Of a stretch of DNA of 24,251 nt, positions 1 through 19,760 are shown piece by piece. The position numbers and the translations under genes were made by a program. The stretch is from a virus, in IMG/VR virus record IMGVR_UViG_3300039018_000010, positions 1 to 24,251 of that record, one strand, 5' to 3'. The notes under the pieces were generated by a model that ran no database searches, was not told the origin of the DNA, and was given only the letters and a program-made list of their open reading frames with translations. The first letter of the stretch is position 1. Each line of letters begins with the position of its first letter.

Positions 1-2
1 AG

Positions 3-197
3 CATGGCAGAATTGTGTTAAATTCGGAAGAAGATTGGGATGAGTTTGTAGACCAGTTAATCCTGTTCCCTGCACAAGGGGTTCACGATGACTTGCCTGA
101 CTCCCTTAGTTACATTGACCAACTTGCAGTCACTTCGTATATGGAAGAAGATGACTCCGAGGATTGGCAACCAGTAGATATTATTAGTGGGGTATAA
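3..197 (+). CDS. Terminase large subunit, C-terminal end (partial)
   Basis: This reading frame is already open at the left edge, so only the last 64 codons of the gene are present. A GTG at 15 would make a stand-alone 60-aa protein, but the sequence reads as the tail of a terminase nuclease domain. The stretch VDQLILFPAQGVHDDLPDSL matches the end of TerL proteins, where an HDD(L/x)xD(A/S)L motif supplies an acidic metal ligand of the RNase H-like headful nuclease. TerL is the ATP-driven motor that cuts concatemers and pumps DNA through the portal. The portal gene starts one base after the stop, the usual terL-portal order. The ATPase part lies outside the window. The identification rests on a short stretch plus position, but both agree. 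Confidence 0.8.
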   Translation, partial: HGRIVLNSEEDWDEFVDQLILFPAQGVHDDLPDSLSYIDQLAVTSYMEEDDSEDWQPVDIISGV

Positions 198-198
198 G

Positions 199-2169
199 AT
201 GGAATATCAAGAACCAACCGAGTCCGACAAGGAAATAGTTAACTTTGTTGTTAACCATTGTGATCGTTGGAGGGATTGGAGAGATGTTAACTGTCTTGAT
301 GATTGGCTAGAGTACGAGCGTATCTTTAATGGTGAGTGGGATGCCCAAGACAAAACCCGTGACTCCGAGAGAAGCCGAATAGTTACCCCCGCTACCCAAC
401 AAGCCGTAGAGACACGCCATGCTGAGATCATGGAAGCCATCTTTGGTCAGGGTGAGTTCTTTGACATCCAAGACGATATTCGTGATGTCAATGGTAGCCC
501 CCTAGATGTTGAAGCTATCAAGGCTCAACTCATGGAAGACTTCAAAGTAGACAAGATTCGCAAGTCTATTGACCAGATTGAGTTACTTGCTGAGATTTAT
601 GGTACGGGCATCGGTGAGATTGTTGTCAAAACAGAGAAAGTCTTTGTTCCCGCTACTCAGGCAATACCTGGTCAGATGGGACAAGCTGCTATTGGTGTAG
701 AGGAAAGAGACCGCATCGCAGTCAAGATTGTTCCTGTTAACCCCCGTAACTTTTTGTTTGACCCCAATGGAACATCTATTGATGACTGTATGGGTGTGGC
801 TATTGAGAAGTATGTCTCCATCCATAAGATAGTCAAAGGTCAAGAAGAAGGCATCTACCGCAAGGTAAAGGTCGGTACTGACTCGATGGATACAGACTTA
901 GAGCCTACCCAAGAAGTTACTCAGTACGAAGATGACAAAGTAAAACTTCTTACTTACTATGGATTAGTCCCCCGTGAGTACCTAGAGCAGTTGGAAAACG
1001 AAGATGGTGAAGTAGAGGATTTCTTCCCTGAAGACACCATCCAAGATGAGTATTCCGATTTGGTCGAAGCAATCGTGGTGATTGCCAATGATGGAACGCT
1101 TCTCAAAGCAGAAGCCAATCCATACATGATGAAAGACCGCCCAATCCTTGCTTATCAGGACGATACAGTTCCTAATCGCTTATTGGGTCGTGGTACTGTT
1201 GAGAAGGCTTACAACTCACAAAAGGCTATAGATGCCCAAGTGCGTTCACACTTAGATTCACTAGCCCTGACAACTAGCCCAATGATGGCTATGGATGCCA
1301 CTCGCCTCCCCCGTGGTGCTAAGTTTGAAGTAAAGCCAGGTAAAGCTATCCTGACAAACGGCAATCCCAATGAGATTCTGTTCCCGTTCAAGTTCGGCAA
1401 TACTGATGGTTCTAACCTGACGACTGCCAAAGAGTTTGAACGTATGCTTTTGATGGCAACAGGAACTCTTGACTCTCAGGGAATGATTACTGCTGTCTCC
1501 AGAGATGCTGGTCAGGGTGGTATTTCGATGGCTACTGCTTCGATTATCAAGAAATACAAGCGTACCTTGGTGAACTTCCAAGAGGATTTCATGATCCCCT
1601 TCATCACCAAAGCCGCCTATCGCTATATGCAGTTTGACCCCGAGCGTTATCCTACTGTGGACATGAAGTTCATTCCTACGGCAGCGCTTGGAATCATCGC
1701 TAGAGAGCATGAGCAACAACAGTTCATTGCCCTACTACAGACTCTTGGCCCGAATACACCTGTTTTGCCTATCATTTTGAAGGGCATCATGGCTAATTCT
1801 TCTCTGTCAAACAGATTTGAGTTGATTGAGATGCTCGACAAGATGGCTGTTGCTGATCCACAAGCTCAACAAGCGGCTCAGATGCAACAACAATTGGCTA
1901 TGCAACTGGCACAGGCTCAGATTGCTGTCCAAACTACACAAGCAGAGCAGAATAAGGCAGAGGCTCAGAAGTTGTTAACAGAGGCGCAATTGATGCCTAT
2001 TGAGTTGCAAGCTAAGAGCATGGCGGCTAACACCAAGAACCTCCCTACTGACGATGCTTTGGCTTCAAAAGAGTTTGATAAGCGTGTCAAAGTTGCTGAA
2101 TTGATGCTTAAAGAAGCTGATATTCAGAACAAGGCCAAGATTGTTGAAAAACAGATGACTAGAGCATGA
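199..2169 (+). CDS. Portal protein (head-to-tail connector)
   Basis: A 656-residue protein placed between the terminase end and the scaffold gene. It should form the dodecameric ring at the capsid vertex through which DNA is packaged and which seats the tail. The N-terminus is acidic and Trp-rich, followed by a mixed core with a VNPRNFLFDPNG stretch typical of P22-type portals. The last ~110 residues are a Gln/Ala-rich helical region (AQQAAQMQQQLAMQLAQAQ and onward), as in the C-terminal barrel or crown helices of portals. The length is close to P22 gp1 (about 725 aa) and longer than T7 gp8. I chose ATG 199 over in-frame GTG 187 because GTGGGG at 187-192 is spaced like a ribosome site for 199 and the terminase stop is at 195-197. 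The P22-like assignment is by motif and order, not a search. Confidence 0.88.
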   Translation: MEYQEPTESDKEIVNFVVNHCDRWRDWRDVNCLDDWLEYERIFNGEWDAQDKTRDSERSRIVTPATQQAVETRHAEIMEAIFGQGEFFDIQDDIRDVNGSPLDVEAIKAQLMEDFKVDKIRKSIDQIELLAEIYGTGIGEIVVKTEKVFVPATQAIPGQMGQAAIGVEERDRIAVKIVPVNPRNFLFDPNGTSIDDCMGVAIEKYVSIHKIVKGQEEGIYRKVKVGTDSMDTDLEPTQEVTQYEDDKVKLLTYYGLVPREYLEQLENEDGEVEDFFPEDTIQDEYSDLVEAIVVIANDGTLLKAEANPYMMKDRPILAYQDDTVPNRLLGRGTVEKAYNSQKAIDAQVRSHLDSLALTTSPMMAMDATRLPRGAKFEVKPGKAILTNGNPNEILFPFKFGNTDGSNLTTAKEFERMLLMATGTLDSQGMITAVSRDAGQGGISMATASIIKKYKRTLVNFQEDFMIPFITKAAYRYMQFDPERYPTVDMKFIPTAALGIIAREHEQQQFIALLQTLGPNTPVLPIILKGIMANSSLSNRFELIEMLDKMAVADPQAQQAAQMQQQLAMQLAQAQIAVQTTQAEQNKAEAQKLLTEAQLMPIELQAKSMAANTKNLPTDDALASKEFDKRVKVAELMLKEADIQNKAKIVEKQMTRA

Positions 2170-2405
2170 ATCAGGAACTTCAGAAGTACTATGAGGAACG
2201 CTTCTCAATGATGTCCACACAAGGTTGGATAGAATTGATGGAAGATGTTGACAAAATGATAGAACCTTTGAATAATATTTCAACAATTGCAGATGAAAAA
2301 AGTCTACAATTCAGAAAAGGTGAGTTATCTATACTTATTTGGCTGAAAAACTTGAAACAAGTCAGCGAAAGAGCATTTGAGGACTTAAATGAGAAGAATG
2401 TATGA
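2166..2405 (+). CDS. Small acidic helical protein of unknown function
   Basis: A 79-residue protein whose ATG overlaps the portal stop (ATGA at 2166-2169), implying translational coupling with the portal. It looks wholly helical: an N-terminal helix (ELQKYYEERFSMM), a central acidic helix and a C-terminal helix with LSILIWLKNL. It has no signal peptide or recognised catalytic motif. Small proteins at this place between portal and scaffold are common in uncultured podoviruses and usually have no assigned function. A role in head assembly or as an early-acting helper is possible but not shown by the sequence. The reading frame is convincing because of the exact junctions at both ends. Confidence 0.72.
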   Translation: MNQELQKYYEERFSMMSTQGWIELMEDVDKMIEPLNNISTIADEKSLQFRKGELSILIWLKNLKQVSERAFEDLNEKNV

Positions 2406-2616
2406 ATTTGCCTGTGTAAATGGGCATAAAACTTCGAGACTTGTTGTTTATGAGACAGCGAGTTTTATGTGTGAGTGTGGTGAGGAATCTCATCGCACTT
2501 TATCTGCGCCTTATTTTAGGCTTGAAGGATGGTCTGGTTCATTCCCAACGGCTCACGCCAAGTTTGATAAAAGCCATAACGACAAGTTAAAGTCTGAGCG
2601 CAAACTCAACTCATAA
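2389..2616 (+). CDS. Small zinc-knuckle-like (FmdB-like) protein
   Basis: A 75-residue protein starting inside the end of the previous gene. ATG 2389 is preceded by an AGGA at 2380-2383, five bases away; an in-frame ATG at 2398 would remove three residues. Near the N-terminus it has Cys9 and His13 (CVNGH), then Cys28 and Cys30 (CECG). This resembles the short zinc ribbon of FmdB-type regulatory proteins, with an H in place of one Cys and C-x-C instead of C-x2-C. After the knuckle comes an aromatic stretch (FRLEGWSGSFP) and a charged tail. Metal binding is inferred from residue spacing only. Similar one-domain ribbons sit beside portal or scaffold genes in other phages; their role is not known to me. 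Confidence 0.7.
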   Translation: MRRMYEFACVNGHKTSRLVVYETASFMCECGEESHRTLSAPYFRLEGWSGSFPTAHAKFDKSHNDKLKSERKLNS

Positions 2617-2673
2617 GCAATTATGCCGAGTTGAATCTCCTACAACCGATTGACGGCAGGAAAAGGAAAAAGT

Positions 2674-3417
2674 ATGTTAGTTGATGATGACAAAGAAGAG
2701 TTGGGTGAGTTACAGATCGAAGAGCAGAAGATCGAGCAAAAGCCTGAACTTCCTGAAAAATACAGGGAAAAAAGTTTAGACGAGATTGTGAAGATGCACC
2801 AAGAGGCTGAAAAGCTAATTGGAAAGCAAGCACAGGAAGTAGGCGAGGTCAGAAAGTTAGCCGATGAACTCATCAAACAGAACCTTGGTTCACGACAGCA
2901 ACAAACTAGACAGGAAGAGCCTGAAGTAGATTTCTTTGAGAATCCACAGAAGGCAATTCAGAGGACAGTTGATAATCATCCTGACATCCAAGCGGCACGA
3001 CAAGTAACGCTAGAGATGAAAAAGGCACAAATTCAGCAGAGGTTGGCGCAAGAACATCCTGACTTTGGTGAAATCGCCAGAGATCAGGATTTTGCAAATT
3101 GGGTGAAGTCTAGCCCTGTTCGCATTAAAATCTTTGAGCAAGCCAATTCTGGATATGATTTTGACTCTGCCAATGAATTGCTATCGACCTATAAACAACT
3201 ACGTTCTGTTAAACAGAAGCAAGTAAGTGATGAGGGCGAGGTAACTCGCAAACAGAACTTAAAAGCAGTAGGTGTAGATGTAGGTGGTTCTGGTGAATCA
3301 TCAAAGAAGGTATACCGAAGGGCAGACCTTATTCGGCTCAAAATGCAAGACCCAAATCGATATGACGCTTTAAGTGAAGAAATCATGCAAGCCTATCAAG
3401 AGGGTCGGGTTCGTTAA
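2674..3417 (+). CDS. Capsid scaffolding protein
   Basis: A 247-residue, highly charged, helix-rich protein directly upstream of the major capsid gene, the classic scaffold position. The N-terminal half is acidic and Lys/Glu/Gln-rich (LPEKYREKSLDEIV then KMHQEAEKLIGKQAQEVGEV), predicting long coiled coils. The C-terminus ends in a conserved-looking helical segment (RADLIRLKMQDPNRYDALS) and a basic tail (QEGRVR), the kind of coat-binding end found in P22-type scaffolds. Scaffolds guide coat subunits into a procapsid and leave before or during packaging. I chose ATG 2674 because AAGGA at 2663-2667 is six bases upstream; an in-frame TTG at 2650 lacks a good site. No protease motif is seen, so this is scaffold only. 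Confidence 0.82.
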   Translation: MLVDDDKEELGELQIEEQKIEQKPELPEKYREKSLDEIVKMHQEAEKLIGKQAQEVGEVRKLADELIKQNLGSRQQQTRQEEPEVDFFENPQKAIQRTVDNHPDIQAARQVTLEMKKAQIQQRLAQEHPDFGEIARDQDFANWVKSSPVRIKIFEQANSGYDFDSANELLSTYKQLRSVKQKQVSDEGEVTRKQNLKAVGVDVGGSGESSKKVYRRADLIRLKMQDPNRYDALSEEIMQAYQEGRVR

Positions 3418-3435
3418 ACTTTAGGAGATTTAATC

Positions 3436-4398
3436 ATGGCATATCCAACACCAGCGGTTACAGTAACCACCGCAGACAAGTTCATCCCAGAAATCTGGTC
3501 AGATGAAATCGTAGCCTCATACAAGAAAAATCTTGTTATGGCAAACCTCGTAATGAAGATGAACTTCAAGGGTAAGAAGGGTGATGTAGTACACATTCCT
3601 TCACCTACCCGTGGTAACGCTACAGCGAAAGCGGCATCTACTGCCGTTACTCTGATTGCCGATACTGAGACAGAAGTTCTGGTTAACATTAACCAACACT
3701 TTGAATACTCACGTTTCATTGAGGACATCGTTGAAGCACAAGCCTTGAACAGCTTGCGTCAGTTCTATACTGCTGATGCTGGTTACGCTCTGGCTCGTCA
3801 AGTAGACACTAGCTTGATCCAATTGGGTCGTGCATTCAATGGTGCTACTGTCGGTACTAACGACTATGCAACTGCTGCGGCTTCTACCAAGGCTTTCGTT
3901 GGCGGTGATGGCACTACTGTTTATAACAGTTCTACATCCAATGCTTCTGCTTTGACTGATGCCGCTATTCGTCGTACGATTCAGCGTTTGGATGACAACG
4001 ACACTCCTATGGATGGTCGCTTCTTCATCATTCCTCCTTCAAGCCGCAACACGTTGATGGGTCTTGCCCGTTATACTGAACAGGCTTTTGTGGGTAATGG
4101 TAATGCAATCCGCAATGGTGAAATCGGTCAACTGTATGGTATCCCCGTGTTCACATCTAGCAATGCTGATACTGCTGCTGGTAACTCTACAACAGATCGT
4201 ATCTGCTTGATGGGTCACAAGGACGCTATGGTCTTGGTTGAGCAAATGGGCATTCGCTCACAGACTCAGTACAAACAAGACTACTTGGCTACTTTGTTCA
4301 CATCTGACACACTTTATGGTGTGAAAGCAATGCGTACAGCCGCTACTGTTGGTGCAGCTTTGTCTTCTAGCGCATTTGCGTTAGCAGTTCCAGCCTAA
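3436..4398 (+). CDS. Major capsid protein
   Basis: A 320-residue protein right after the scaffold and preceded by a clear AGGAG at 3423-3427, eight bases from ATG. The sequence has the character of an HK97-fold coat: an N-terminal arm, a helix with LVMANLVMKMNF, a beta segment KKGDVVHIPSPTRGN, a spine-helix region with ALARQVDTSLIQLG, and a late strand-rich region. It would build the icosahedral shell. Codon use is biased to T- and C-ending codons compared with the ejection genes, as expected for a very abundant product. A strong intrinsic terminator follows the stop. The exact coat family (P22 coat versus other HK97-fold groups) cannot be fixed by eye. Confidence 0.88.
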   Translation: MAYPTPAVTVTTADKFIPEIWSDEIVASYKKNLVMANLVMKMNFKGKKGDVVHIPSPTRGNATAKAASTAVTLIADTETEVLVNINQHFEYSRFIEDIVEAQALNSLRQFYTADAGYALARQVDTSLIQLGRAFNGATVGTNDYATAAASTKAFVGGDGTTVYNSSTSNASALTDAAIRRTIQRLDDNDTPMDGRFFIIPPSSRNTLMGLARYTEQAFVGNGNAIRNGEIGQLYGIPVFTSSNADTAAGNSTTDRICLMGHKDAMVLVEQMGIRSQTQYKQDYLATLFTSDTLYGVKAMRTAATVGAALSSSAFALAVPA

Positions 4399-4409
4399 TA
4401 GTTGCCTTT

Positions 4410-4441
4410 TCCCCTCGCCTTAATCGGTGGGGGGATTTTTT
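4410..4441 (+). terminator. Intrinsic terminator after the major capsid gene
   Basis: Ten-base-pair G+C-rich stem (4410-4419 with 4426-4435, two G-U pairs), six-base loop TTAATC, then T6. It lies 11 bases after the capsid stop and immediately upstream of the ribosome site of the next gene, so it can only reduce, not end, expression of the downstream structural genes. Confidence 0.85.
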
Positions 4442-4459
4442 ACTTCAAGGAGATTTATT

Positions 4460-4783
4460 ATGGCAGCAGCAACAGCAGTTACTTCCCGCAGGGGAAATGA
4501 CCAGTTCCGTGGTCTATTTACAGACACTTGGGACGTTACCTGTACTCTTGATAGCGCATCAGTATCTACTGTATCTACCGCTACAGATACAGTTACAGTA
4601 CCAGGCGTAAAATTAGGCGACATGGTTATCGGTATGGCAATTGGAGTTTCTGAGGCAGGTTTGGTTCGTAGAGCCTATGTTTCAGCCGCTGACACAGTTA
4701 CTATCGTGACTTACAACCCTACAGGCAGTTCTGTAGACTTGGCATCAACTACATTGAACCTTATTGTGGCTCGTGCAGTTTAA
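4460..4783 (+). CDS. Putative capsid decoration or small beta-rich virion protein
   Basis: A 107-residue protein between two terminators and next to the major capsid gene. ATG 4460 follows AAGGAG (4447-4452) by seven bases; longer in-frame starts would run back into the terminator hairpin. The chain is rich in Thr, Val, Ala and Gly with alternating patterns, e.g. VTVPGVKLGDMVIGMAIGV and AYVSAADTVTIVTYNPTGSS, ending in a Val/Ala strand. This pattern of short strands is seen in a family of small phage head or tail surface proteins. Its place directly after the coat gene and strong ribosome site suggest an abundant virion protein such as a cement or decoration protein. Function is inferred from position and composition only. 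Confidence 0.7.
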   Translation: MAAATAVTSRRGNDQFRGLFTDTWDVTCTLDSASVSTVSTATDTVTVPGVKLGDMVIGMAIGVSEAGLVRRAYVSAADTVTIVTYNPTGSSVDLASTTLNLIVARAV

Positions 4784-4785
4784 TT

Positions 4786-4812
4786 AAAGGGGGCTAATAC
4801 CCCCCTTTTTTT
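4786..4812 (+). terminator. Intrinsic terminator after the decoration-type gene
   Basis: G5 at 4789-4793 pairs with C5 at 4801-4805 around a seven-base loop, extended by A-T pairs, followed by T7. It starts two bases after the stop of the preceding gene and abuts the GGAG (4813-4816) of the next one. Confidence 0.85.
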
Positions 4813-4821
4813 GGAGTTTTT

Positions 4822-4998
4822 ATGGCTACTTTTCGTTGTTTACAGTCGGGAAACACAGTAACTTTCACCTATCAGCATGATATTGATAGCATGAAAGGTC
4901 ATCAAGGATACGTTCTTGTTGAGGAAACTCCAAAGAAAGACGAAGATAAACCTAAGTTGGGCAGACCAAAAAAAGAGGTTTCAAATGTCGGAAATTGA
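4822..4998 (+). CDS. 58-aa protein with AT-hook-like tail
   Basis: ATG 4822 lies five bases after GGAG (4813-4816), and the frame runs to TGA 4996-4998. The N-terminal ~33 residues form a compact domain (MATFRCLQSGNTV, then a QHDIDSMKGHQGY segment) of a type I recall from other phage structural clusters. The C-terminal part is charged and contains KLGRPKK, which resembles the GRP core of an AT-hook minor-groove binding motif. DNA binding is possible but rests on a seven-residue motif; the hook usually has Arg-Gly-Arg-Pro, and the first Arg is replaced here. The gene overlaps the start of the next gene by 14 bases. I cannot assign a function. Confidence 0.68.
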   Translation: MATFRCLQSGNTVTFTYQHDIDSMKGHQGYVLVEETPKKDEDKPKLGRPKKEVSNVGN

Positions 4999-5188
4999 TC
5001 CAAGAGAATTTGGCAAGTTGGAAGCCCAAGTTGAGGCTTTACAGAACGAAGTCCATGCACTTCGCCAAGATATTAAAACGCTTTTAGAAATGGCTAACAA
5101 GTCTAAAGGTGGCTTTTTCGTTGGAATGGCTATCGCCTCTATTGTGGGCGGTATCATTTCTTTCATTGCAACCAAGCTAGTTCGATAA
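4985..5188 (+). CDS. Coiled-coil plus single membrane helix protein (holin-like or XhlA-like)
   Basis: A 67-residue protein starting at ATG 4985 inside the end of the previous gene. Residues 8-37 (KLEAQVEALQNEVHALRQD and onward) form an amphipathic coiled coil with a clean heptad pattern. Residues 43-63 (GFFVGMAIASIVGGIISFI) are one membrane helix rich in Gly, and the end is short and basic (TKLVR). This layout, a cytoplasmic coil followed by one C-terminal helix, resembles XhlA-type proteins and small holins or antiholins. It lies among virion genes, 14 kb from the lysis cassette, so a role in DNA entry or as a regulator of lysis timing is equally possible. Function is open; the gene call is good. 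Confidence 0.72.
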   Translation: MSEIDPREFGKLEAQVEALQNEVHALRQDIKTLLEMANKSKGGFFVGMAIASIVGGIISFIATKLVR

Positions 5189-5196
5189 GGATTTAT

Positions 5197-5382
5197 ATGC
5201 CTCAAGTTGGAAACAAGAAATTCCCATACACAGAAAAAGGCGAAAAAGAAGCCAAAGAGTATGGAAAGAAGAAATCTATGCCCGTTACTGTAATGATTGC
5301 TATTGGCAAGCCTAAAGCTATGCCTACCCGTGGTGGTCGTACCGCTACTAACATGATGAAGAAGTCTGGAAGAGGTAAATAA
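5197..5382 (+). CDS. Small lysine-rich protein
   Basis: A 61-residue protein with 16 Lys/Arg residues (26%). The ribosome site TAAGGA overlaps the stop of the preceding gene and is five bases from ATG 5197. The first 26 residues (MPQVGNKKFPYT, then an alternating Glu/Lys segment) resemble small proteins seen in many podovirus structural clusters; the rest is basic, with TRGGRTATNMMKKSG at the end. There are no Cys residues, no membrane helix and no enzyme motif. It belongs to a run of four tiny basic proteins here. A role as a nucleic acid-binding or capsid-internal protein fits the charge but is not demonstrated. Confidence 0.7.
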   Translation: MPQVGNKKFPYTEKGEKEAKEYGKKKSMPVTVMIAIGKPKAMPTRGGRTATNMMKKSGRGK

Positions 5383-5666
5383 TGTCATCTTTAACTGCTC
5401 CCGTTACTCTCCTTAGTGCTGTTACTGCCACAGGCGCATCCACAGCAGTTCAAGCGGATGCTGGTCAACCCGCATTCCTTCAAGTTTCAGGCATCACGAG
5501 TGCTACTGTTGCTTTGCAAGGCAGTCTGGATGGCACAACATACTCAACGATTGGTACAGCCTTAACTGGTGATGGCATTATTACTGTGGCAAATGCGCCT
5601 AAGTATCTAAGAGCCAATTGCACAGTTTATGTAACTGGAACAATCACAGCCAAGATCATGTACTGA
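5382..5666 (+). CDS. Small beta-rich virion protein
   Basis: A 94-residue protein whose ATG shares bases with the preceding TAA (TAATG), with AGAGG at 5371-5375 six bases upstream. The chain is low in charge and rich in Thr, Ala, Val and Gly, with repeated short strands (VTLLSAVTATGAST, ATVALQGSLDGTTYSTIG, YVTGTITAKIMY). The 'xxLQGSLDGTTYSTIG' stretch resembles a jelly-roll or immunoglobulin-like module found in small phage surface proteins, where a strand is followed by an S-x-D-G-x-x-(F/Y) turn. It is most likely a minor head or tail surface component. It is the only non-basic product among the tiny genes of this stretch. Confidence 0.68.
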   Translation: MSSLTAPVTLLSAVTATGASTAVQADAGQPAFLQVSGITSATVALQGSLDGTTYSTIGTALTGDGIITVANAPKYLRANCTVYVTGTITAKIMY

Positions 5667-5667
5667 T

Positions 5668-5826
5668 ATGAAAAAGACCAAAGCAGAAGCAAAAATCTCT
5701 AAGGTCTACAAAGAGTTTAAGGCGGGAACGCTTCACTCTGGCAAAGGTGGCCCTGTGGTCAAGAAGCCTAAACAAGCTATTGCTATTGCTTTATCCGAAG
5801 CAGGTATGTCAAGGAAGAAGAAATGA
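5668..5826 (+). CDS. 52-aa basic protein, DUF6496-like
   Basis: A 52-codon frame starting one base after the previous stop. Of 52 residues, 15 are Lys or Arg. The sequence contains EFKAGTLHSGKGGPVVKKP followed by KQAIAIALSEAGMS and a KKK end. That order matches a family of tiny proteins I know as DUF6496, found in phages and many bacteria: a basic start, an LHSG turn, and a helix KQAIAIALSEAG. Its role is not known. The clean family signature makes the gene call solid in spite of its length. Its TGA overlaps the next ATG (ATGA at 5823-5826), so the two are probably translationally coupled. Confidence 0.78.
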   Translation: MKKTKAEAKISKVYKEFKAGTLHSGKGGPVVKKPKQAIAIALSEAGMSRKKK

Positions 5827-5969
5827 AACAAGGTCTATACGCTAACATCAATGCCAAACAAGAACGCATCAAAGCAGGTTCTAAGGAAAAGATGCGTAAG
5901 GTTGGCTCTAAAGGCGCTCCTACTGAGGCGGCATTTAAGGCTGCGGCTAAGACCGCAAAGAAGAAATGA
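5823..5969 (+). CDS. 48-aa basic protein
   Basis: A 48-codon frame linked to both neighbours by ATGA overlaps. Fourteen of 48 residues are Lys or Arg. The motif MKQGLYANINAKQERIKAGS followed by KEKMRKVGSKGAPT is one I recognise from many small phage proteins of unknown function ('GLYANI.AK..RI.AGS.EKMR..G..GAPT'). The C-terminus is an Ala/Lys helix ending KTAKKK. There are no Cys residues and no membrane segment. The product is likely to bind nucleic acid or pack inside the capsid, but that is inference from charge and place alone. Confidence 0.75.
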   Translation: MKQGLYANINAKQERIKAGSKEKMRKVGSKGAPTEAAFKAAAKTAKKK

Positions 5970-6259
5970 AATCTCCTGCTTGGCAAACAAAAGAAGGAAA
6001 AAACCCCAAGGGGGGCTTGAATGCCAAGGGAAGAGCATCGTATAATGCAGAAACGGGTGGCAATTTAAAACCACCAGTAAAGTCGGGAGATAACCCTCGT
6101 AGGGCATCCTTTTTAGCACGAATGGGCAATATGCCTGGCGCTGAGATGAAAGATGGGAAGCCTACCCGACTCCTATTATCTCTTAGAGCTTGGGGCGCAA
6201 CGTCCAAGGAAGACGCTAAAGCCAAGGCTAAAGCGATCTCTAAGAGGAATAGTAAATGA
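5966..6259 (+). CDS. Basic protein, DUF6321-like
   Basis: A 97-residue protein with 22 Lys/Arg residues, starting in an ATGA overlap. It contains SPAWQTKEGKNPKGGLNAKG, then GNLKPPVKSGDNPRRASFLA and a Lys/Ala-rich helical end. This is the signature of a family I recall as DUF6321, found in phages including cyanophages, always small and basic, with no assigned function. Conserved Gly/Pro/Asn turns suggest a folded core rather than a disordered tail. It closes the run of tiny basic genes and overlaps the next gene by four bases. The family name is from memory and should be confirmed by a profile search. Confidence 0.78.
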   Translation: MKSPAWQTKEGKNPKGGLNAKGRASYNAETGGNLKPPVKSGDNPRRASFLARMGNMPGAEMKDGKPTRLLLSLRAWGATSKEDAKAKAKAISKRNSK

Positions 6260-6591
6260 GGCCAACCTCAGTCGGAATTAGCCCTACAGCAAATACGCTG
6301 ACTACTGTTTACACAGTACCTACGGGTTACTACGCCAAATTTACTGTCATGTATATCCACAATACGGGTGGATCGACAAAGCACATCACAGTCCAATGGT
6401 ATGACGCAAGTACAGCTACCACCTTAGACATACTTACTAATTACGACTTTACTGCCAAAACATATCTTCAGTTTGATGGCAATGCTTATATCGTATTGGA
6501 AGAAGGCGATAGGATTCAGATTACTACTCAAAGTGCAAGTACATTTAGTTTTATTGCAACATTTGAAGTTTCAGGAGCGCAACGAACATGA
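6256..6591 (+). CDS. Small beta-sandwich virion protein
   Basis: A 111-residue protein with ATGA and ATGAC-type overlaps at both ends. The sequence alternates short strands: ANTLTTVYTVPTGYYAKFTV, HITVQWYDASTATTLDIL, AYIVLEEGDRIQITTQS and FSFIATFEVSG. This is the pattern of a small phage jelly-roll family with a 'TVPxGYYAK' strand and a final FSxIATFE strand that I have seen near tail tube genes. It has no Cys and few Lys. It is probably a virion surface or collar protein. It lies just before tail tube A, so it may sit at the head-tail junction. Confidence 0.72.
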   Translation: MRPTSVGISPTANTLTTVYTVPTGYYAKFTVMYIHNTGGSTKHITVQWYDASTATTLDILTNYDFTAKTYLQFDGNAYIVLEEGDRIQITTQSASTFSFIATFEVSGAQRT

Positions 6592-7232
6592 CCTACTTAG
6601 AACTTGTTAACGATGTGTTGGTTCGCTTGCGTGAAAGCACAGTAGAAACTGTTGCCGAAACAGCCTATTCTTCTTTGATTGGCAAGTTTGTCAATGATGC
6701 TAAAAGACAGATTGAAGACTCCTACAACTGGAATTGCCTTACTCAAACAATCACAGTAACGACTACTAGTGGTACAAGTTCTTATGCTTTGACAGGTGCA
6801 GGACAGAAGTTCCGTGTCAACGATGCTTTGAACACAACCAGTTTGATTGGTCTTCGCAATATTGAGTTTGTGGACATGAACCGCAAACTAAACCTTGCTG
6901 CGCCTTCACAGTCTATTCCTTCAGAGTTCTGCTTTAGCGGTGTAGATGGTAGTGGAGACACCAAAGTAGACCTGTTTCCAGTTCCTTCTGGTGCTTTTAC
7001 TTTGTTGTTTGACCTGACTATTCCACAAGCGGCTTTGTCTGCTGATGGCACATCTGTCAAGGTCTTGGACTACTTGGTGACTCAGAGTGCGTATGCTCGT
7101 GCTTTGATTGAGCGTGGTGAAGATGGTGGAACAAACTCTAATGAGGCTTATGCCTTGTTTAGAGGAATGCTCTCTGATGCAATTGCATTGGAGTCCACTC
7201 GTTATCCTGAAGACAACTTTGTGGCGGTCTAA
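6588..7232 (+). CDS. Tail tubular protein A-like (head-tail adaptor)
   Basis: A 214-residue protein at the place of T7 gene 11. The N-terminus is helical (TYLELVNDVLVRLRESTVE, then IGKFVNDAKRQIEDSYNW), followed by a strand-rich centre and a C-terminal helix with AYARALIERGEDGG. The 'vNDAkr.IEdsynW..L...' stretch is typical of the tail tube A family in many podoviruses. In T7, gp11 forms a ring between the portal and the nozzle and helps carry DNA during ejection. The gene is coupled to the next by TAATG. The family call is by pattern; a P22 gp4-type adaptor is a less likely alternative. Confidence 0.82.
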   Translation: MTYLELVNDVLVRLRESTVETVAETAYSSLIGKFVNDAKRQIEDSYNWNCLTQTITVTTTSGTSSYALTGAGQKFRVNDALNTTSLIGLRNIEFVDMNRKLNLAAPSQSIPSEFCFSGVDGSGDTKVDLFPVPSGAFTLLFDLTIPQAALSADGTSVKVLDYLVTQSAYARALIERGEDGGTNSNEAYALFRGMLSDAIALESTRYPEDNFVAV

Positions 7233-8776
7233 TGGCATCAGCACTTCAAAGTTACAGTCTCTCAGCGCCAGGCTTCTATGGCCTGAATACTGAAGATTCT
7301 CCCCTTGATCTAGGGGCTGGCTTTGCCTTGGTTGCGACAAACGTGATCTTGGATCAGTATGGTCGTATTGGTGCTAGAAAGGGTTGGTCAAGGGTTAACT
7401 CTTCCTCTGGAAACCTTGGCGCTAACGATGTTGGTGTCATCCATGAATTAGTCCAGAATGATGGGACTTTGACAGTTCTTTTTGCTGGCAACAACAAGAT
7501 ATTCAAGCTCGGTACTTCTAATGCGGTGACTGAGTTGACCTATGGTGGTGGTGGTTCTGCCCCTACTATCACGGCATCTAACTGGCAATGTGCATCCTTG
7601 AATGGCATTGCATACTTCTTTCAAACTGGTCACGATCCATTGATTTATGATCCCGCAGTAAGTACAACTACTTATCGCAGAGTGTCTGAGAAGTCTGGTT
7701 ATGTAGCTACAGTTCCTCAAGCCAACATTGCTATTTCAGCATTTGGTCGTCTTTGGGTAGCTAATACATCTACAGACAAAGTAACTGTTACCTTCTCTGA
7801 TCTGATTGCAGGTCATGTATGGGGTGGTGGCACTTCAGGCTCATTAGATGTCTCCCGTGTGTGGCCTAATGGTGCTGATGAAGTGATGGGCTTGGCAGCT
7901 CACAATGATTTCTTATTTATCTTTGGCAAGAAGCAGATTCTTGTTTACTCTGGTGCTTCTACACCAGCATCTCTCGTTCTGAGAGACACAGTAGGTTCTA
8001 TTGGGTGTATTGCTAGAGATACCATACAAAGTATTGGTACTGATGTTGTTTTCTTGTCAGACTCAGGTATTCGTTCATTGATGAGGACTATCCAAGAGAA
8101 GTCTGCACCTTTGCGAGACCTTTCTAAGAATGTTCGATTTGATTTGGAATCCTCCTTGTCTGGAGAAACACTAGCAAACGTCAAATCTGTTTATTCAGAG
8201 AAGAATGCTTTTTATCTGCTTGTTCTGCCAGCTACTTTGCAAGTCTATTGCTTTGATACCAAACAATCTCTGCAAGATGGTGCTTCCCGTGTAACCAAGT
8301 GGGATAATATTTCACCAACCTCACTAAGATCGTTGCGTAATGGAGACTTGTACATTGGAAAGAACGGCTACATTGGTAAGTATGATGGTTATCTTGATGA
8401 TGCTTCTACTTATCGATTCCTGTACTACACCAACAATGCCGACTTAGGAAACCCTAATCAGATTTCCATTCTTAAGTCTATTACTGCTGTTGTAATTGGC
8501 GGTTCTAACCAGTTCTTGACAATTAAGTGGGCTTTTGACTATTCAGGTGCTTATCAGTCAGAGAACGTCTTTATCCCACCCCAAGGCTATTTTGAGTATG
8601 GGGTTGGTGAGTATGCAGTTGCAGACTACTCAAGCGGAATCCCAATTAAAGCATTGACAAGTAATGCTTCAAGTGCAGGTAAAATTGTGCAAACTGGTTA
8701 CGAAGCCACTATCAATGGCACTCAGTTGTCAATTCAGAAAATTGAACTTCAAGCCAAAGAAGGCAAGATAGGATAA
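7232..8776 (+). CDS. Tail nozzle-type structural protein (tail tube B / P22 gp10-like)
   Basis: A 514-residue, strand-rich protein. The start ([20 protein letters not shown]) and the phrase [16 protein letters not shown] are hallmarks of a common phage family in which an early 'a.nv.ld..G.l..R.G' motif opens a beta-propeller. Repeated blocks with aromatic-Gly turns follow ([46 protein letters not shown]), as expected for propeller blades. In T7 gp12 and P22 gp10, such proteins form the hexameric nozzle under the adaptor ring and hold the fibres. The length is shorter than T7 gp12 (about 794 aa) and close to P22 gp10 (about 470 aa). It sits between tail tube A and the fibre, which agrees. Confidence 0.8.
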
Positions 8777-8778
8777 AT

Positions 8779-10935
8779 ATGAGCAATTATTCAAAATCCA
8801 CTAACTTTGCAACCAAAGATAATCTTTCGCCTGGCAATCCTTTAAAGATTGTTAAGGGTACTGAGATTGATACTGAGTTCAATAATATTGCAACTGCCAT
8901 TGCGACTAAGACAGATAACTCCTCTGCCACCATTACTGGGGGTACGATAAATGGTGCGGTGATCGGTGGAACTACTGCCGCTGCGGGAACTTTCACCAAC
9001 CTTACTGTTAGCACCTCCGCTACGATTGCTTCTGCCGCTATTAGTGCAGGAACAATCAATGGTGCGGTCATCGGTGGCTCATCTCCACTTGCTATTACTG
9101 GCACGAACATTACCGCAAATACTGGCTTTAGTGGCCCATTGACAGGTGCAGTAACTGGTAACGTCACAGGTAACTTAACGGGTGCGGTTACAGGCAATGT
9201 CACAGGTAACGTAACTGGCAATCTGACAGGCAATGTAACTGCTGCTTCTGGCACTTCTACATTCAACAATGTGACCATCTCTGGCGCATTGGACATGGAT
9301 AGCGGTACAGCGGCAACCATTACTGGTTTGGCAAGCCCTACAAACGATTCTGATGCGGCTACCAAGGGTTATGTGGATGCACTTGCCCAAGGTATTGATG
9401 CCAAAGCCTCTGTGGTTGCGGCTACTACTGCAAACATCACATTGTCTGGCGCACAAACCATTGATGGTATATCGGTTGTTGCGGGTGATCGGGTCTTGGT
9501 TAAAGACCAATCTACTGCTTCTGCTAATGGTATTTACTTGTGTGCAACAGGTTCTTGGACACGCACAACTGATGCCGACACTTATGCTGAATTGGTAGCG
9601 GCTTTTACCTTTGTTGAAAGTGGCACTGTTAACGCTGACTCAGGTTTTATCTGCACAATAGATGCGGGTGGGACATTGGGAAGCACATCGATTACATGGG
9701 CGCAGTTCTCAGGTGCGGGTCAGATAACGGCTGGCGCAGGTATGGTTAAGTCTGGCAATACTCTAAATGTTCAATCTGCATCAAATAGCCGTCTTGTTGT
9801 TGGCGCAGATGAGATTGACTTAGCAGCCTCTGGTGTAACACCAGGCACTTATCAATCTGTCACAGCCGATGCCTATGGACGTATCACTTCTGGTACGAAT
9901 CCAACGACTATTGCTGGCTATAACATCACAAATGCTTATACCAAAACTGAGATAGATTCGATCTTTGGTTCTACTACTGCGGCAGCTACTTCTGCATCTA
10001 ATGCGGCTACCTCTGCTTCCAACGCTTCAACAAGTGCCTCTAACGCTTCTACAAGTGCAAGCAATGCGGCTACTAGCGAATCCAATGCGGCAGCCTCCTA
10101 TGATGCCTTTGATGACCGATATTTAGGCTCTAAGTCAACTGCGCCATCTGTTGACAATGACGGAAACGCTTTGCTGACAGGTGCTTTGTACTGGAATACA
10201 GCAGTAAACACTTTGTATGTGTGGACAGGATCGGCTTGGTCACAAGCGGCATTTACTGCTTCTGGCTTTGCTACTTTGACAGGTACTGAAACCCTGACAA
10301 ACAAGACCCTGACAAGCCCTGTCCTGACTACTCCTCAGTTAGGTACTCCTGCTAGTGGTGTTTTAACCAATGCTACAGGTCTTCCTTTATCTACTGGCGT
10401 AACAGGCACTCTACCAATAGCAAATGGTGGTACAGGTGCATCTACTCTAGCAGGGGCTAACATCCCTGTTGTCAATGTTGCCAACACCTTTACTGGTACA
10501 CAGACTTTCTCAGGTACATCATCTGCTCAAGCCATTGTTCTAAACGATGCAGCAGAGGTAGCAACAGTATCAGCAACTGCGGCTACTGGAACGATTAACT
10601 ACGACATTACAACTCAGTCTGTTTTGTACTACACAAGTAACGCAAGTGCTAACTGGACAGTTAACTTTAGAGCCTCTAGCGGTACTTCATTGAATACTTT
10701 GATGAGTACAGGTCAATCAATGACTGTGGCTTTCTTAGTCACTCAAGGCTCTACTGCTTACTACAACTCTGCTGTTCAAGTGGATGGCACTACTTCTGGA
10801 GTCACTACTAGGTGGCTAGGTGGTGCGCCTACTGCTGGTAATGCTAGTGGCATCGATAGCTATCGTTATTTGATTATCAAGACAGGTAGTGCGACTTTCA
10901 CAGTCTTGGCAAGCAACACACAATTTAAGGCTTAA
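8779..10935 (+). CDS. Tail fibre protein with repeats
   Basis: A 718-residue Thr/Ala/Gly/Ser-rich fibre. The N-terminus ([19 protein letters not shown]) is typical of the virion-attached end of podovirus fibres. Then come two INGAVIGG blocks, eight TG(N/A)(V/L) tetrapeptide repeats (residues 122-153), a domain near 195-310 with [19 protein letters not shown], five heptads TSxSNAx (404-438) that should form a trimeric coiled coil, a short YVWTGSAW domain, a [10 protein letters not shown] region, and a strand-rich tip near 580-718. The layout is of a trimeric fibre that reaches the host receptor. I see no intramolecular chaperone or sugar-degrading motif. Host recognition is the likely role, shared with the next gene. 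Confidence 0.85.
9142..9237 (+). repeat. Eight 12-base repeats coding TG(N/A)(V/L)
   Basis: Eight in-frame 12-base units encode [12 protein letters not shown] tetrapeptides in the tail fibre. The units differ mostly at synonymous positions, so the repeat is kept at the protein level. The spacing suggests a beta-helix or beta-spiral shaft segment. Confidence 0.85.
9988..10092 (+). repeat. Five 21-base heptad repeats coding TS(A/E)SNA(A/S)
   Basis: Five consecutive 21-base units each encode a seven-residue TSASNAA-type heptad within the tail fibre. Third codon positions vary freely. Ala/Ser/Asn heptads of this sort form trimeric coiled-coil stalks in phage fibres. Confidence 0.88.
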
Positions 10936-10939
10936 CACT

Positions 10940-12898
10940 ATGCCATTACAAGCAACAAGTGGTGCGGCTTCTTATGATGCCTTTGGTGGTGGTGCGGCCG
11001 CTGTTCCTCAATACATTGAGGATGTGTTTTCAACTTACCTTTATACAGGCACAGGTGCGGCTCAGACAATTACCAATGAAATTGACTTGTCTACTAAGGG
11101 AGGCTTGGTTTGGATAAAAGGCAGAAGTGGCGCAACTGGTCATCGTTTAACTGATACAGCAAGAGGTGTTACAAAATCTTTAGCATCAAATTCTACTGCC
11201 GCAGAAGCAACTGAAACCACAGGATTAACTGCGTTTGGCACAACTGGATTTACGATTGATACGGATGCGGATTACAACACCTCTGCGGCTACCTACGCCT
11301 CATGGACATTCCGCAAGCAACCAAAGTTCTTTGATGTTGTGACTTTTACAACTGATGTAAATGGGTATGCACTTGTAAGTCATAATTTGGGGTCAACTCC
11401 TGCGTTTGTAATAACAAAAACAACATCATCAGGCGGTAGTGATTGGGCTTGTTACCATAAAGATTTAAATGGTGGCGTTAATGCTGGAAGATACATTATT
11501 CGTTTAACCCAAACCGGTGCGGCTGACAACCCAGTTGGCGCAAACAATTGGATTGTCCCAACTTCTACAACTTTAGAATTTCCAGCGGGTATTTGGTTAA
11601 GTGGTAATACAACACATGTGGCGTATGTGTTTGCAAGCAACGCAGGAGGCTTTGGTCTGACTGGTACAGACAATGTGATTTCGTGTGGGTCGTTTACGAC
11701 TGACGGAAGTGGTAACGCTACTGTCAGTCTTGGCTATGAGCCGCAGTGGTTGCTGATGAAAAACTCAAGCGGAACAGCGGATAGTTGGGTCATTCTTGAC
11801 AATATGCGTGGCTGGAATACCTCAACGAATGATGCGGCACTGTTTCCCAATGCTTCTTCAGCAGAAGGGGGTGGCGATTACGGAACGCCAAATGCCACTG
11901 GATTTACTGTGGCAAATATGGGCAACACTAAAGACTTCATCTACATAGCCATTCGTAGAGGCCCGATGAAAGTGCCTACGAGTGGGACTAGTGTGTTTGC
12001 GCCTTTGACTTACACAGGAAATGGAACATCTGGTCGTTACATCAGCGGTGCTGGCTTTCCTCCTGATTTAATAATTCAAACAGCAAGGTCAGCTTCTGAA
12101 AACAGAGAATTTGATGACCGATTAAGAGGCGGTGGAAGCACAGCAATGAACGCTTTGTTTTCCAACTCAACCAACGCAGAAGCAACAGACTCAGGTTCTG
12201 TTCAGTTGCTCAACCAAGATGGATTTACTGTTCGTTCTTTTGGTAACGGCTCTAGTGTTACTTACATTGGTGAATGCTTCAGACGTGCCCCCAGCTTCTT
12301 TGATGAGGTTTGCTATACAGGGACTTCAAGTGCAAGGACTATTACGCATAACTTAGCGGCAGTGCCTGAGTTGATGATTGTAAAGTGCAGAAGCACTGCT
12401 AGGGCATGGCCTGTTTATGCGGCTCCTCTTGGAAATACAGAAGAGCCTAGGTTAAACGAAAGCAGTGCCTCTGGTTCTAGCACTTCTTGGAACAGTACCA
12501 CACCAACTAGTTCTGTATTTAGTGTTAGCAATGGGTCTATAGTTAACGCCAGTGGGGACACCTATGTAGCCTACCTATTTGCAACCTGCGCTGGTGTTTC
12601 CAAAGTAGGAAGCTACACAGGAACAGCTACTACAAAGCAAATTGATTGTGGCTTTACAGCAGGTGCAAGGTTTGTCCTTATTAAGCGAACTGACAGCACT
12701 GGTGATTGGTATGTGTGGGACACAGCACGAGGAATTGTGAGTGGCAATGACAGCTACCTTTTATTAAATTCAACTGCTGCCGAGGTTACCAACACAGATT
12801 ACATTGACACATATAGCGCAGGTTTTGAGATTAGTTCAACTGCGCCAGCCGCTATCAATGCTTCAGCAGGAACATTCGTGTTCCTTGCGATTGCCTAG
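10940..12898 (+). CDS. Multi-module tail or receptor-binding protein (DUF7483-like modules)
   Basis: A 652-residue protein immediately downstream of the fibre gene. I chose ATG 10940 (AAGG at 10927-10930); an in-frame ATG at 10889 lies inside the fibre gene. The start contains AASYDAFGGG, also present as AASYDAFDD in the fibre. The rest reads as six tandem modules of about 100 residues (about 30-127, 130-235, 245-340, 351-449, 453-550 and 553-652). Each has a YTG(T/N) strand, a hydrophobic strand ending in Lys (FVLIKRT, LMIVKCR, LVWIKGR), a W.(V/I).D..RG turn, an NSTAAE-like loop, GFT(V/I) and a final aromatic strand (VAYVFASN, VAYLFATC). This matches what I recall as DUF7483, found in phage tail proteins. 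Receptor binding is inferred from the position. Confidence 0.8.
   Translation: MPLQATSGAASYDAFGGGAAAVPQYIEDVFSTYLYTGTGAAQTITNEIDLSTKGGLVWIKGRSGATGHRLTDTARGVTKSLASNSTAAEATETTGLTAFGTTGFTIDTDADYNTSAATYASWTFRKQPKFFDVVTFTTDVNGYALVSHNLGSTPAFVITKTTSSGGSDWACYHKDLNGGVNAGRYIIRLTQTGAADNPVGANNWIVPTSTTLEFPAGIWLSGNTTHVAYVFASNAGGFGLTGTDNVISCGSFTTDGSGNATVSLGYEPQWLLMKNSSGTADSWVILDNMRGWNTSTNDAALFPNASSAEGGGDYGTPNATGFTVANMGNTKDFIYIAIRRGPMKVPTSGTSVFAPLTYTGNGTSGRYISGAGFPPDLIIQTARSASENREFDDRLRGGGSTAMNALFSNSTNAEATDSGSVQLLNQDGFTVRSFGNGSSVTYIGECFRRAPSFFDEVCYTGTSSARTITHNLAAVPELMIVKCRSTARAWPVYAAPLGNTEEPRLNESSASGSSTSWNSTTPTSSVFSVSNGSIVNASGDTYVAYLFATCAGVSKVGSYTGTATTKQIDCGFTAGARFVLIKRTDSTGDWYVWDTARGIVSGNDSYLLLNSTAAEVTNTDYIDTYSAGFEISSTAPAAINASAGTFVFLAIA
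11027..12895 (+). repeat. Six tandem ~100-residue protein modules
   Basis: Six diverged copies of one beta-rich module fill most of the protein. Shared marks are the YTG strand near the module start, a (L/I)(I/V)K strand about 30 residues later, an NST(A/N)AE loop clear in copies 1, 4 and 6, and a closing aromatic-Ala strand. Copies 2 and 3 are the most altered. The repeat is visible only in protein; the DNA copies have diverged. Confidence 0.65.
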
Positions 12899-12913
12899 AC
12901 TTAAAGGACTTAT

Positions 12914-13414
12914 ATGCAAATACGAATCAAAACAACAGGCGCAGTCATGTACGAGGCAGAATTTCGTGCATACACAAAAGCCAATGGTGGCCCATCATGG
13001 GAGACAACAACAACTGAAGTCTTAGAGGCTTTGGGTGCTGATGTAGTCTTTGAAGGCCCACAAGCTACAGGTGGAACTGTTTACCAATACTCTCAAGCCT
13101 CTGGTGTAGAGCAGATTGAGGGTAAGTGGTACACAAAGTACATCCTTGGCCCTGTCTTTATTGACCAAGTGGTAGATGGTGTAACTACTACTGCTGCTGA
13201 ACAAGAAGTGGCTTACAAGGCTTCTAAGGATGCTGAACAGGCTAAGAGTGTTCGTGCTTCTAGAGATGAGAAACTGAAAGACTGTGATTGGACACAAGTA
13301 GCTGATGCTCCTGTTGACAAAGCAGTATGGGCTACCTATCGTCAAGCCTTGCGTGATGTCACTACGCAGACAGGTTTCCCTTGGACTATTACATGGCCTG
13401 TTGAGCCACAATAA
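12914..13414 (+). CDS. Tail fibre assembly chaperone-like protein
   Basis: A 166-residue protein after the receptor-binding genes. AAAGGA (12903-12908) is five bases from ATG 12914. The C-terminal half contains ASRDEKLKDCDWTQVADAPV followed by a VWATYRQALRD helix and GFPWTITWPVEP. That is the signature of the phage tail assembly chaperone family (Pfam Phage_tail_APC, PF16778, from memory): 'R..LL..tDWtqlpDap...a...YRqaLRdi......pw...WP..P'. The N-terminal ~90 residues are a separate domain of unknown nature. In other phages this family sits next to fibre genes and is thought to help fibre folding or attachment. The family call is strong; its action here is inference. Confidence 0.83.
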   Translation: MQIRIKTTGAVMYEAEFRAYTKANGGPSWETTTTEVLEALGADVVFEGPQATGGTVYQYSQASGVEQIEGKWYTKYILGPVFIDQVVDGVTTTAAEQEVAYKASKDAEQAKSVRASRDEKLKDCDWTQVADAPVDKAVWATYRQALRDVTTQTGFPWTITWPVEPQ

Positions 13415-13423
13415 GGAGCAATC

Positions 13424-15364: not shown

Positions 15365-15373
15365 GGAATCATC

Positions 15374-17089: not shown

Positions 17090-17090
17090 A

Positions 17091-19022: not shown

Positions 19023-19111
19023 AAGATTGGGTTGAAGCAATCATTGCTTCGGCCTGTGTTGCTTGCTTTGTCATAGTTTGTAGCTACATTATTGTTTGGG
19101 CGTACCCGTGA
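19019..19111 (+). CDS. 30-aa membrane peptide
   Basis: A 30-codon frame that starts in an ATGA overlap with the third ejection gene and ends in a GTGA overlap with the next one. The product is MKDWVEAII then a long hydrophobic helix (ACVACFVIVCSYIIVWAYP) with three Cys, so nearly the whole chain is one membrane span. Exact coupling on both sides is the main support. It may be a tiny holin-like or regulatory membrane peptide. At this length a chance frame cannot be ruled out, although without it 85 bases would be empty in a genome where no other such gap exists. Confidence 0.5.
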   Translation: MKDWVEAIIASACVACFVIVCSYIIVWAYP

Positions 19112-19260
19112 AATGGCTACTAGTGCTGTCAATGTTGTTTACATTGGTGGCATCTAGTAAGGAAAAAACTGAATATCGTTGTGTTAGATGGGCATGGACA
19201 GGTGATGTTTACAACCGAAAAGTAGTATGCCTTGAGTGGCAAAAGGTAGAAAAGAAATGA
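19108..19260 (+). CDS. 50-aa secreted or membrane-anchored protein, GTG start
   Basis: The GTG at 19108 overlaps the preceding TGA (GTGA) and the frame runs to TGA 19258-19260. Residues 1-16 (MKWLLVLSMLFTLVASS) are a short signal sequence. The mature part has a compact Trp/Cys pattern, YRCVRWAWTGDVYNRKVVCLEW, shown here as the pieces YRCVRWAWTG and DVYNRKVVCLEW, with Cys25 and Cys41 able to form a disulfide in the periplasm. I recall very similar small proteins ('YRCv.W.WTGDVYNRKVVCLEW') in many phages near lysis genes; no function is known to me. ATGA coupling to the next gene supports it. An ATG at 19113 is out of frame. Confidence 0.68.
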   Translation: MKWLLVLSMLFTLVASSKEKTEYRCVRWAWTGDVYNRKVVCLEWQKVEKK

Positions 19261-19760
19261 TTCCCATCGATCCTCTAACCGCTTTAGCTGGCATACAGTC
19301 AGCCATCAGCATGGTCAAGAAGGCTGCGGGTGTGGCCCAAGATTTAGGCTCACTTGCGCCCATGATTGGGAAGCTCTTCGATGCCAAGTCAACTGCTACC
19401 AAGGCCATGCTCCAAGCCAAGCAGTCTGGCAAAGGCTCAAACATGGGAACGGCCTTGCAGATCGAGATGGCCTTGGAGCAGGCCAGAGCATTCGAGGAAG
19501 AGCTAAAAATGCTTTTCATGCAGACTGGCAAGATCGATGTCTGGAACAAGATCAAGGCCAGACAGGCCGAGATGGACCTTGCTGATGCCAAAGAATTGAG
19601 CGCATTGAAAGCCGCAGATAAGAAAGCCAAAGAAAAAGAACAAGAGATGAATGAGCTGGCCATGATCATTGGCGGTGTGGCTTTTGTCTTGTTTCTGGTG
19701 TTCATTGGAGTCAATGAATTGATGACCTTTTGTGAAACCACTAGAAGGTGTGGTCGGTGA
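19257..19760 (+). CDS. Helical protein with a C-terminal membrane segment
   Basis: A 167-residue protein starting in the ATGA at 19257-19260; an in-frame ATG at 19236 would overlap the previous gene more without a better ribosome site. The N-terminus PIDPLTALAGIQSAISMVKK begins a long amphipathic region, followed by charged helices (ALEQARAFEEELKMLF; VWNKIKARQAEMDLADAKE) and a Lys/Glu coil. Residues 136-154 (MIIGGVAFVLFLVFIGVNE) are one membrane helix, so the large domain probably lies in the cytoplasm, or inside the virion. A relative with the same plan is common in podoviruses between ejection and lysis genes; its role is unknown. Codons here are markedly richer in GCC, AAG and GAG than in the ejection genes. 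Confidence 0.72.
   Translation: MIPIDPLTALAGIQSAISMVKKAAGVAQDLGSLAPMIGKLFDAKSTATKAMLQAKQSGKGSNMGTALQIEMALEQARAFEEELKMLFMQTGKIDVWNKIKARQAEMDLADAKELSALKAADKKAKEKEQEMNELAMIIGGVAFVLFLVFIGVNELMTFCETTRRCGR

Follow-up and report, generated by a model that had tools for sequence, protein, structure and literature searches.

Two hairpins with adjoining T-tracts, one directly behind the major capsid protein (MCP) gene and the other behind the small gene that follows it, were found to be real and widely kept among related phages, and they are most likely leaky intrinsic terminators, the case being firmer for the first of them. It is probable that both are read by the host RNA polymerase and close the capsid transcription unit, and that the tail genes are started again by a candidate promoter, PB, embedded in a coding sequence further downstream. 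The whole stretch of DNA analysed, hereafter the window, is a virus record of 24,251 bases, i.e. a 24-kb fragment, with head genes of the SU10/P22 type according to profile matches (Table 1). Megablast of positions 3001–8000 against named phages gave zero matches, and Rfam (gathering score) and tRNA scans of the window returned no hits. Plus-strand ORFs continue far past both hairpins, to about position 21673, and the two hairpins do sit between the MCP gene and the tail, ejection and lysis genes, as the initial annotation had placed them.

Table 1 Features of the window discussed in the text (1-based positions)
Feature	Position	Strand	Evidence or remark
Portal gene	187–2169		Head gene
79-aa ORF	2166–2405		Hosts candidate promoter PA
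Candidate promoter PA, TTGACA-N17-AATAAT	2248–2276	+	Inside the 79-aa ORF; 11/12 consensus bases
Scaffold-like gene	2650–3417		By position; phrog_13678, unknown function
MCP gene, 320 aa	3436–4398	+	phrog_267, E 7.6e-50; PF19821, E 3.7e-12
Hairpin 1 (stem of T1, a probable intrinsic terminator)	4410–4435	+	10 pairs, loop 6, −18.6 kcal/mol
T6 tract of T1	4436–4441	+	Read from the sequence
107-aa gene	4460–4783	+	Predicted all-beta protein
Hairpin 2 (stem of T2, a probable intrinsic terminator)	4789–4804	+	5 G-C pairs
T7 tract of T2	4806–4812	+	Read from the sequence
58-aa gene	4822–4998	+	After T2; directly behind the MCP hairpin in 5 relatives
DUF6321 gene, 97 aa	5966–6259	+	PF19846, E 2.9e-24; hosts candidate promoter PB
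Candidate promoter PB, TTGAAT-N18-TATAAT	6017–6046	+	Sigma70-like; inside the DUF6321 gene
SU10-type head-tail adaptor gene	6588–7232	+	PF24175, E 9.1e-12
Endolysin-like Glyco_hydro_19 protein	21080–21673		Profile match

The initial annotation described two hairpins, followed by T6 and T7, that bracket a gene for a 107-aa protein, and all of its coordinates were confirmed in the sequence. Hairpin 1 has the structure TCCCCTCGCC-TTAATC-GGTGGGGGGA and is followed at once by its T-tract, while hairpin 2 is GGGGG-CTAATA-CCCCC with a single C before the T-tract and a stem that can be extended via flanking A-T pairs, giving −12.4 kcal/mol with the flanks. Both are located in short gaps just behind a stop codon, and both combine the GC-rich hairpin and the adjoining U-tract that define an intrinsic terminator. 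The GGAG found immediately 3′ of the T7 tract is the likely ribosome-binding site of the 58-aa gene. Hairpin 1 is the top terminator-like site of the window by the criteria of the folding-energy scan; in dinucleotide shuffles of the whole 24 kb (n = 60) there were 0.05 terminator-like hairpins per strand at −18 kcal/mol or below and 1.4 at −12 kcal/mol or below. A loose consensus scan of positions 1–20000 returned 18 sites compared to 17.5 in shuffles, which is no enrichment and makes that count uninformative by itself, and the loose counts were replaced by the energy-based scans.

Relatives were taken from two IMG/VR scans with MCP queries, in which 80 of at least 597 and 80 of at least 599 loci were kept. 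With two genome contigs and the window added and 13 contigs seen twice subtracted, 148 records were obtained; the window's own copy (L081) was left out of the relatives. Two records lacking the MCP end (L052, L156) and three too short for site 1 (L011, L098, L132) were dropped, the site 1 search region of L044 was extended upstream due to a shifted frame, and the genome contigs L164 and L165 enter the hairpin counts and are absent from the promoter and codon scans. The records are not independent of each other and many are fragments. One relative, L166, carries at 7217–7954 on the minus strand a gene for a queuine tRNA-ribosyltransferase-like protein (phrog_887, E 7e-69).

A hairpin of −10 kcal/mol or below is present at site 1 in 143 of the 143 examinable records, representing 56 distinct sequences, and at site 2 in all 127 that have a complete 107-aa gene, representing 50. 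Both hairpins are therefore retained in relatives with the same gene order, a point on which the initial annotation had made its reading depend. The limit of −10 kcal/mol is a low bar, because shuffled gaps retain runs of G and C, and 38% of the gap shuffles at site 1 and 42% at site 2 pass it. The native hairpin energy was reached by only 1.0% of 1620 shuffled gaps at site 1, which makes this site secure on energy, and by 9.1% of 1660 at site 2, where the case is statistically weaker and leans on the T-tract and on the fact that no record lacks the hairpin.

The pairing itself was addressed by an arm-swap test, in which the 5′ arm of one hairpin version was combined computationally with the 3′ arm of a different one, and from which two records with hairpins over-extended in the conservation scan (L047, L149) were excluded. 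At site 1 the mean energy changed from −17.6 kcal/mol in native hairpins to −12.3 kcal/mol in swapped ones, and 84% of 2718 combinations were weaker than both parents, so that the arms show compensatory pairing and selection maintains it. The effect at site 2 was small (−13.2 to −11.7 kcal/mol, 47% of 2318 combinations weaker than both parents), because almost all stems there are G5/C5; the pattern behind the stop codon is a constant G-run, loop and C-run. With regard to stem polarity, the 5′ arm is C-rich at site 1 in 140 of 143 records, the exceptions being L130, L136 and L139, which have no 107-aa gene, whereas all 127 records have a G-rich one at site 2; this holds despite sequence replacement. 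The constant polarity was considered as a functional signal and set aside, as slow turnover of paired bases accounts for it equally well.

A T-run of at least four within 10 nt accompanies the hairpin in 125 of 143 records at site 1 (129 by another anchor) and in 88 of 127 at site 2 (85 by another anchor), the anchor being misplaced for L130, L136 and L139 at the former site and for L097 at the latter. In the near set (L001–L080 and the window) the figures are 78/79 and 56/72. The U-tract is lacking at site 1 in four of the 143 records (L084, L088, L125, L155), and 39 of the 127 have no T-run of four at site 2; since the tract is absent or short in these relatives, the hairpin may serve another role there. 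When strong terminator-like sites were placed relative to the MCP stop in 126 loci, 111 fell in the interval from 0 to +100 and 68 from +300 to +500. There are further peaks at +700 (39 hits, about 123 loci) and, a small one, from −2000 to −1800 (11). The window has a hairpin at 5131–5153 within a 67-aa membrane-protein-like gene, to which the +700 peak probably corresponds; as that gene is without nearly fixed codons, the peak was not accepted as functional and is read as a coding coincidence.

The protein encoded between the two hairpins has no Pfam match, and its PHROG match, phrog_19253, is of unknown function. Its AlphaFold2 model is all-beta with a pLDDT of 85.4. Foldseek found no match to this model in PDB at E ≤ 0.001 and 17 matches in BFVD at the same limit, most of them to uncharacterised proteins of phages or to segments of longer ones. 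The 107-aa protein may be a decoration protein or a short fibre. After deduplication 53 such proteins remained, of which 49 were aligned. In five relatives (L112, L130, L136, L139, L149) no match to the 107-aa protein was detected in the sequence available, and these have a single hairpin of −20.4 to −23.8 kcal/mol in the 52–60 bases separating the MCP gene from the 58-aa gene. There is thus one hairpin per gene, and as the relatives without the gene show one hairpin only, hairpin 2 seems to be gained or lost together with the 107-aa gene, although L130, L136 and L139 are near-identical in this region and the five therefore amount to about three cases.

The 107-aa gene is also swapped as a cassette among phages with nearly identical flanks (L005, L006, L010). 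In the comparison of L005 with L010, one of four aligned pairs, identity is 96–100% through the MCP end, hairpin 1 and the first bases of the gene, 28–88% inside the gene and 88–100% from about hairpin 2 onward. Out of 206 record pairs with MCP 3′ parts more than 93% identical, 71 are less than 75% identical in the 107-aa gene, and 37 of these 71 share a 58-aa gene of more than 90% identity; the pairs are non-independent. The 58-aa gene is itself less than 75% identical in 38 of the 206, so the exchange is not confined to the 107-aa gene. That the hairpins, besides acting as expression valves, mark the constant limits of a slot in which a virion surface gene is exchanged is a rather unlikely extension of the terminator reading; if it is true, an insulated unit from PA to T2 and a separate PB unit would balance expression whichever allele is present.

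Around the MCP stop, a sigma70 scan requiring at least 10 of 12 consensus matches yielded two widely recurrent positions, which are PA and PB. A third promoter-like position, about 1850 bases before the stop, was found in 15 of 132 records. None of the scanned records has a 10/12 site in the gap that separates the MCP stop from the 107-aa gene; from −1800 to +1000 of the stop, only L044 has a site of at least 10/12 (at +300), and from +2200 to +6000 there are three promoter-like sites, two of which are PB itself (L041, L055) and one isolated.

PB is situated downstream of the two hairpins and ahead of the genes for a 111-aa protein, the adaptor and the tail. Its form in the family is TTGAAY-N18-TATAAT, the window's copy scores 10/12, and its −35 and −10 hexamers are spaced within the 16–18 bases of sigma70 promoters. 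The −10 hexamer coincides with a Tyr and an Asn codon of the DUF6321 gene. In the peptide-pattern set (82 distinct sequences from 98 records) Tyr is encoded by TAT in 81/81 and Asn by AAT in 81/81, while the neighbouring Asn is AAT in 55 and AAC in 27. A deduplicated set collected free of the pattern gave TAT for Tyr in 77/79, AAT for Asn in 76/76, four of the 80 having Lys in place of Asn, and TTG in 75/80. A score of at least 10 at PB is reached by 76 of 80 relatives compared to 9.2% after random synonymous recoding, and none of 500 column-swap nulls, which keep relatedness, reached 76 (mean 15.7, max 65). Such near-fixation at synonymous positions points to selection on the bases themselves. 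Nearly fixed codons make up 25 of the 2337 columns of the scanned genes; among two-fold codons 20 of 345 columns are nearly fixed, and the only adjacent pairs of this kind (n = 72) are the one of PB and one where the 79-aa and 75-aa genes overlap. This analysis, i.e. two-fold codons together with the column-swap null, replaced a log-likelihood ranking of codon pairs that had placed Ser/Arg/Val pairs above PB. An IMG/VR scan with DUF6321, in which 80 of at least 583 were kept, some on contigs already seen, showed TAT AAT in 39 of 39 distinct sequences. As an outgroup, 11 named phages with a DUF6321 gene were used and the motif was located in nine. Three of them, in which the peptide is identical or almost so, keep Tyr-Asn and none of these has TATAAT, the codons being TAT AAC in HTVC115P and TAC AAC in HTVC033P and Lederberg; TAT is used in six of the eight having Tyr and TTG for Leu in one of nine. 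In this control, which comprises few sequences, it is the Asn and Leu codons that favour PB.

At PA, a score of at least 10 is found in 60 of 86 deduplicated relatives compared to 18.7% after random synonymous recoding, which is modestly above the column-swap nulls (n = 500; mean 30.6, max 58). PA, the weaker of the two candidates, probably drives the scaffold and MCP genes. In the same 79-aa ORF, the codons GTC AGC GAA at 2361–2369 are nearly fixed (71/76, 83/88 and 72/77) without obvious reason, 20–28 bases ahead of the start of the next gene.

Taken as sequence signals, these elements suggest the following order of events. The capsid unit would start at the sigma70-like PA, ahead of the scaffold and capsid genes, and T1 would halt most polymerases, making the capsid mRNA the commonest. 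Polymerases passing T1 would transcribe the 107-aa gene and mostly halt at T2, and the remaining ones would supply the few small genes that extend to about position 6000. PB, acting from within the DUF6321 coding sequence, would then start the adaptor and tail genes afresh, so that there would be a capsid unit from PA to T1/T2 and a tail unit from PB onward, the latter independent of readthrough at T1 and T2 because it begins anew. The initial annotation had left three ways by which the downstream genes might be reached, namely leaky readthrough, an antitermination factor or promoters of their own. For the adaptor and tail genes the last is best supported, by the conservation of PB; the 107-aa gene and the handful of small genes ahead of 6017 would be the only ones to need readthrough; and antitermination lost ground, as the two families searched for (PF06530, PF03589) were absent from 17 records.

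The reading depends on which polymerase transcribes these genes. The T7-type RNA polymerase family (PF00940) was detected in none of 16 relatives of 30–68 kb and in none of the phages A-4L, Pf-WMP3, TR020 and CHP58, while T7 itself was detected in the same search. Four full-length relatives were fetched, and family scans of some of the proteins of three of them (G005, G006, G008) showed that G005 and G008 carry genes for DNA polymerase, primase, exonuclease and helicase and G006 one for a primosomal-type protein; no RNA polymerase family was matched among the 19 scanned proteins. As neither the T7-type polymerase nor another RNA polymerase family was matched in these searches, the host polymerase is the likely reader. 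A scheme like that of T7, with a phage-encoded single-subunit polymerase, its own promoters and T1 as a homologue of Tphi, would suit the matching place of the hairpin in a similar gene order, yet it is largely refuted with respect to PF00940 by the search above and is also at odds with the SU10/P22-type head genes, so it is hardly tenable. Late operons of lambdoid phages rely on antitermination, and a Q-, N- or put-like mechanism carrying late polymerases past T1 and T2, with the hairpins acting early or on stray transcripts, would have a parallel there and would agree with the plus-strand ORFs extending so far beyond both. However, the two antitermination families are missing in all 17 records, the window included, with a positive E. 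coli control, the window has no Rfam hit at the gathering score, and PB would render antitermination needless for the tail genes; this explanation is very improbable.

Two further alternatives concern what the elements do rather than what reads them. The hairpins may mainly define mRNA 3′ ends and shield them from 3′–5′ exonucleases, once the transcript has been processed or ended by Rho, while terminating little themselves, in which case the capsid mRNA would be abundant through stability. The stems are indeed present in all records, even those with a missing or short U-tract, and UUCG-type loops, which resist nucleases, recur among the hairpins; the T-run of at least four at site 1 in the window and throughout almost the entire near set, however, is needless for protection alone, and such a role in place of termination seems unlikely. 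The TATAAT of the DUF6321 gene might likewise be some other nucleic-acid site, such as a protein-binding site or an RNA element, or an effect of codon choice. Isolated frozen codons elsewhere in the scanned genes and the prevailing TAT for Tyr in the outgroup fit this, but the frozen bases together make up a −10 hexamer that lies 18 bases from a nearly frozen TTG, and the three named phages with Tyr-Asn use AAC, just as the outgroup seldom uses TTG for Leu. An explanation other than a promoter is judged doubtful.

The principle of a post-capsid terminator is already known. In T7, Tphi lies within the 65-base gap between the MCP gene (gene 10) and gene 11, and according to the published account its readthrough is needed for the expression of genes 11 and 12 (PMC5592923). 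Hairpin 1 resembles Tphi as a hairpin with a U-run directly behind the MCP gene and ahead of the tail and other downstream structural genes. Unlike T7, which has one terminator and its own polymerase, the phages studied here possess two hairpins, SU10-type head genes and a candidate promoter of their own for the tail genes, and a phage single-subunit polymerase as the reader of the hairpin was not found in the 16 relatives. Directly after its MCP gene, the T7-like Pseudomonas phage LUZ100 carries what appears to be a strong terminator; the excerpted text on this phage describes a promoter for the phage polymerase and does not mention a second gene bracketed by hairpins (PMC10134795).

Among 13 named phages examined, nine have a terminator-like hairpin in the gap behind the MCP gene, namely T7, A-4L, Pf-WMP3, TR020, CHP58, P-SCSP2, D6E, S45-C18 and Jace, with poor tails in CHP58 and Jace, and the remaining four (phiSASD1, Javan262, CRP-3, Rita) have none. 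Four cyanophages with an MCP identity of about 32–35% are among the carriers. A-4L and the other named carriers differ from the window in having other genes behind the MCP gene, where annotated. A moron is an additional gene that brings along a promoter and a terminator of its own, and the 107-aa gene is similar to one in that it is a small gene with its own trailing hairpin, gained or lost together with it, absent in some relatives and swapped among close ones; it differs in lacking a 10/12 sigma70-like promoter directly upstream in the scanned records. In the open-licence literature searched, no description was found of a second hairpin that belongs to an exchangeable gene, of host-type signals replacing a phage polymerase, or of a promoter for tail genes located inside a coding sequence.

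Exact 5′ and 3′ ends that can be tested follow from the terminator and promoter reading, and the frozen synonymous codons suggest a route to phage promoters in metagenomes for which there are no RNA data. Hundreds of copies of the capsid protein must be produced, against a few for the tail parts, and capsid and tail genes adjoin each other despite these unequal needs. The answer of T7 is its own polymerase and one terminator, and the phage group described here, known from metagenome contigs, appears to use host-type signals alone, i.e. two terminators plus a promoter that lies within a gene.
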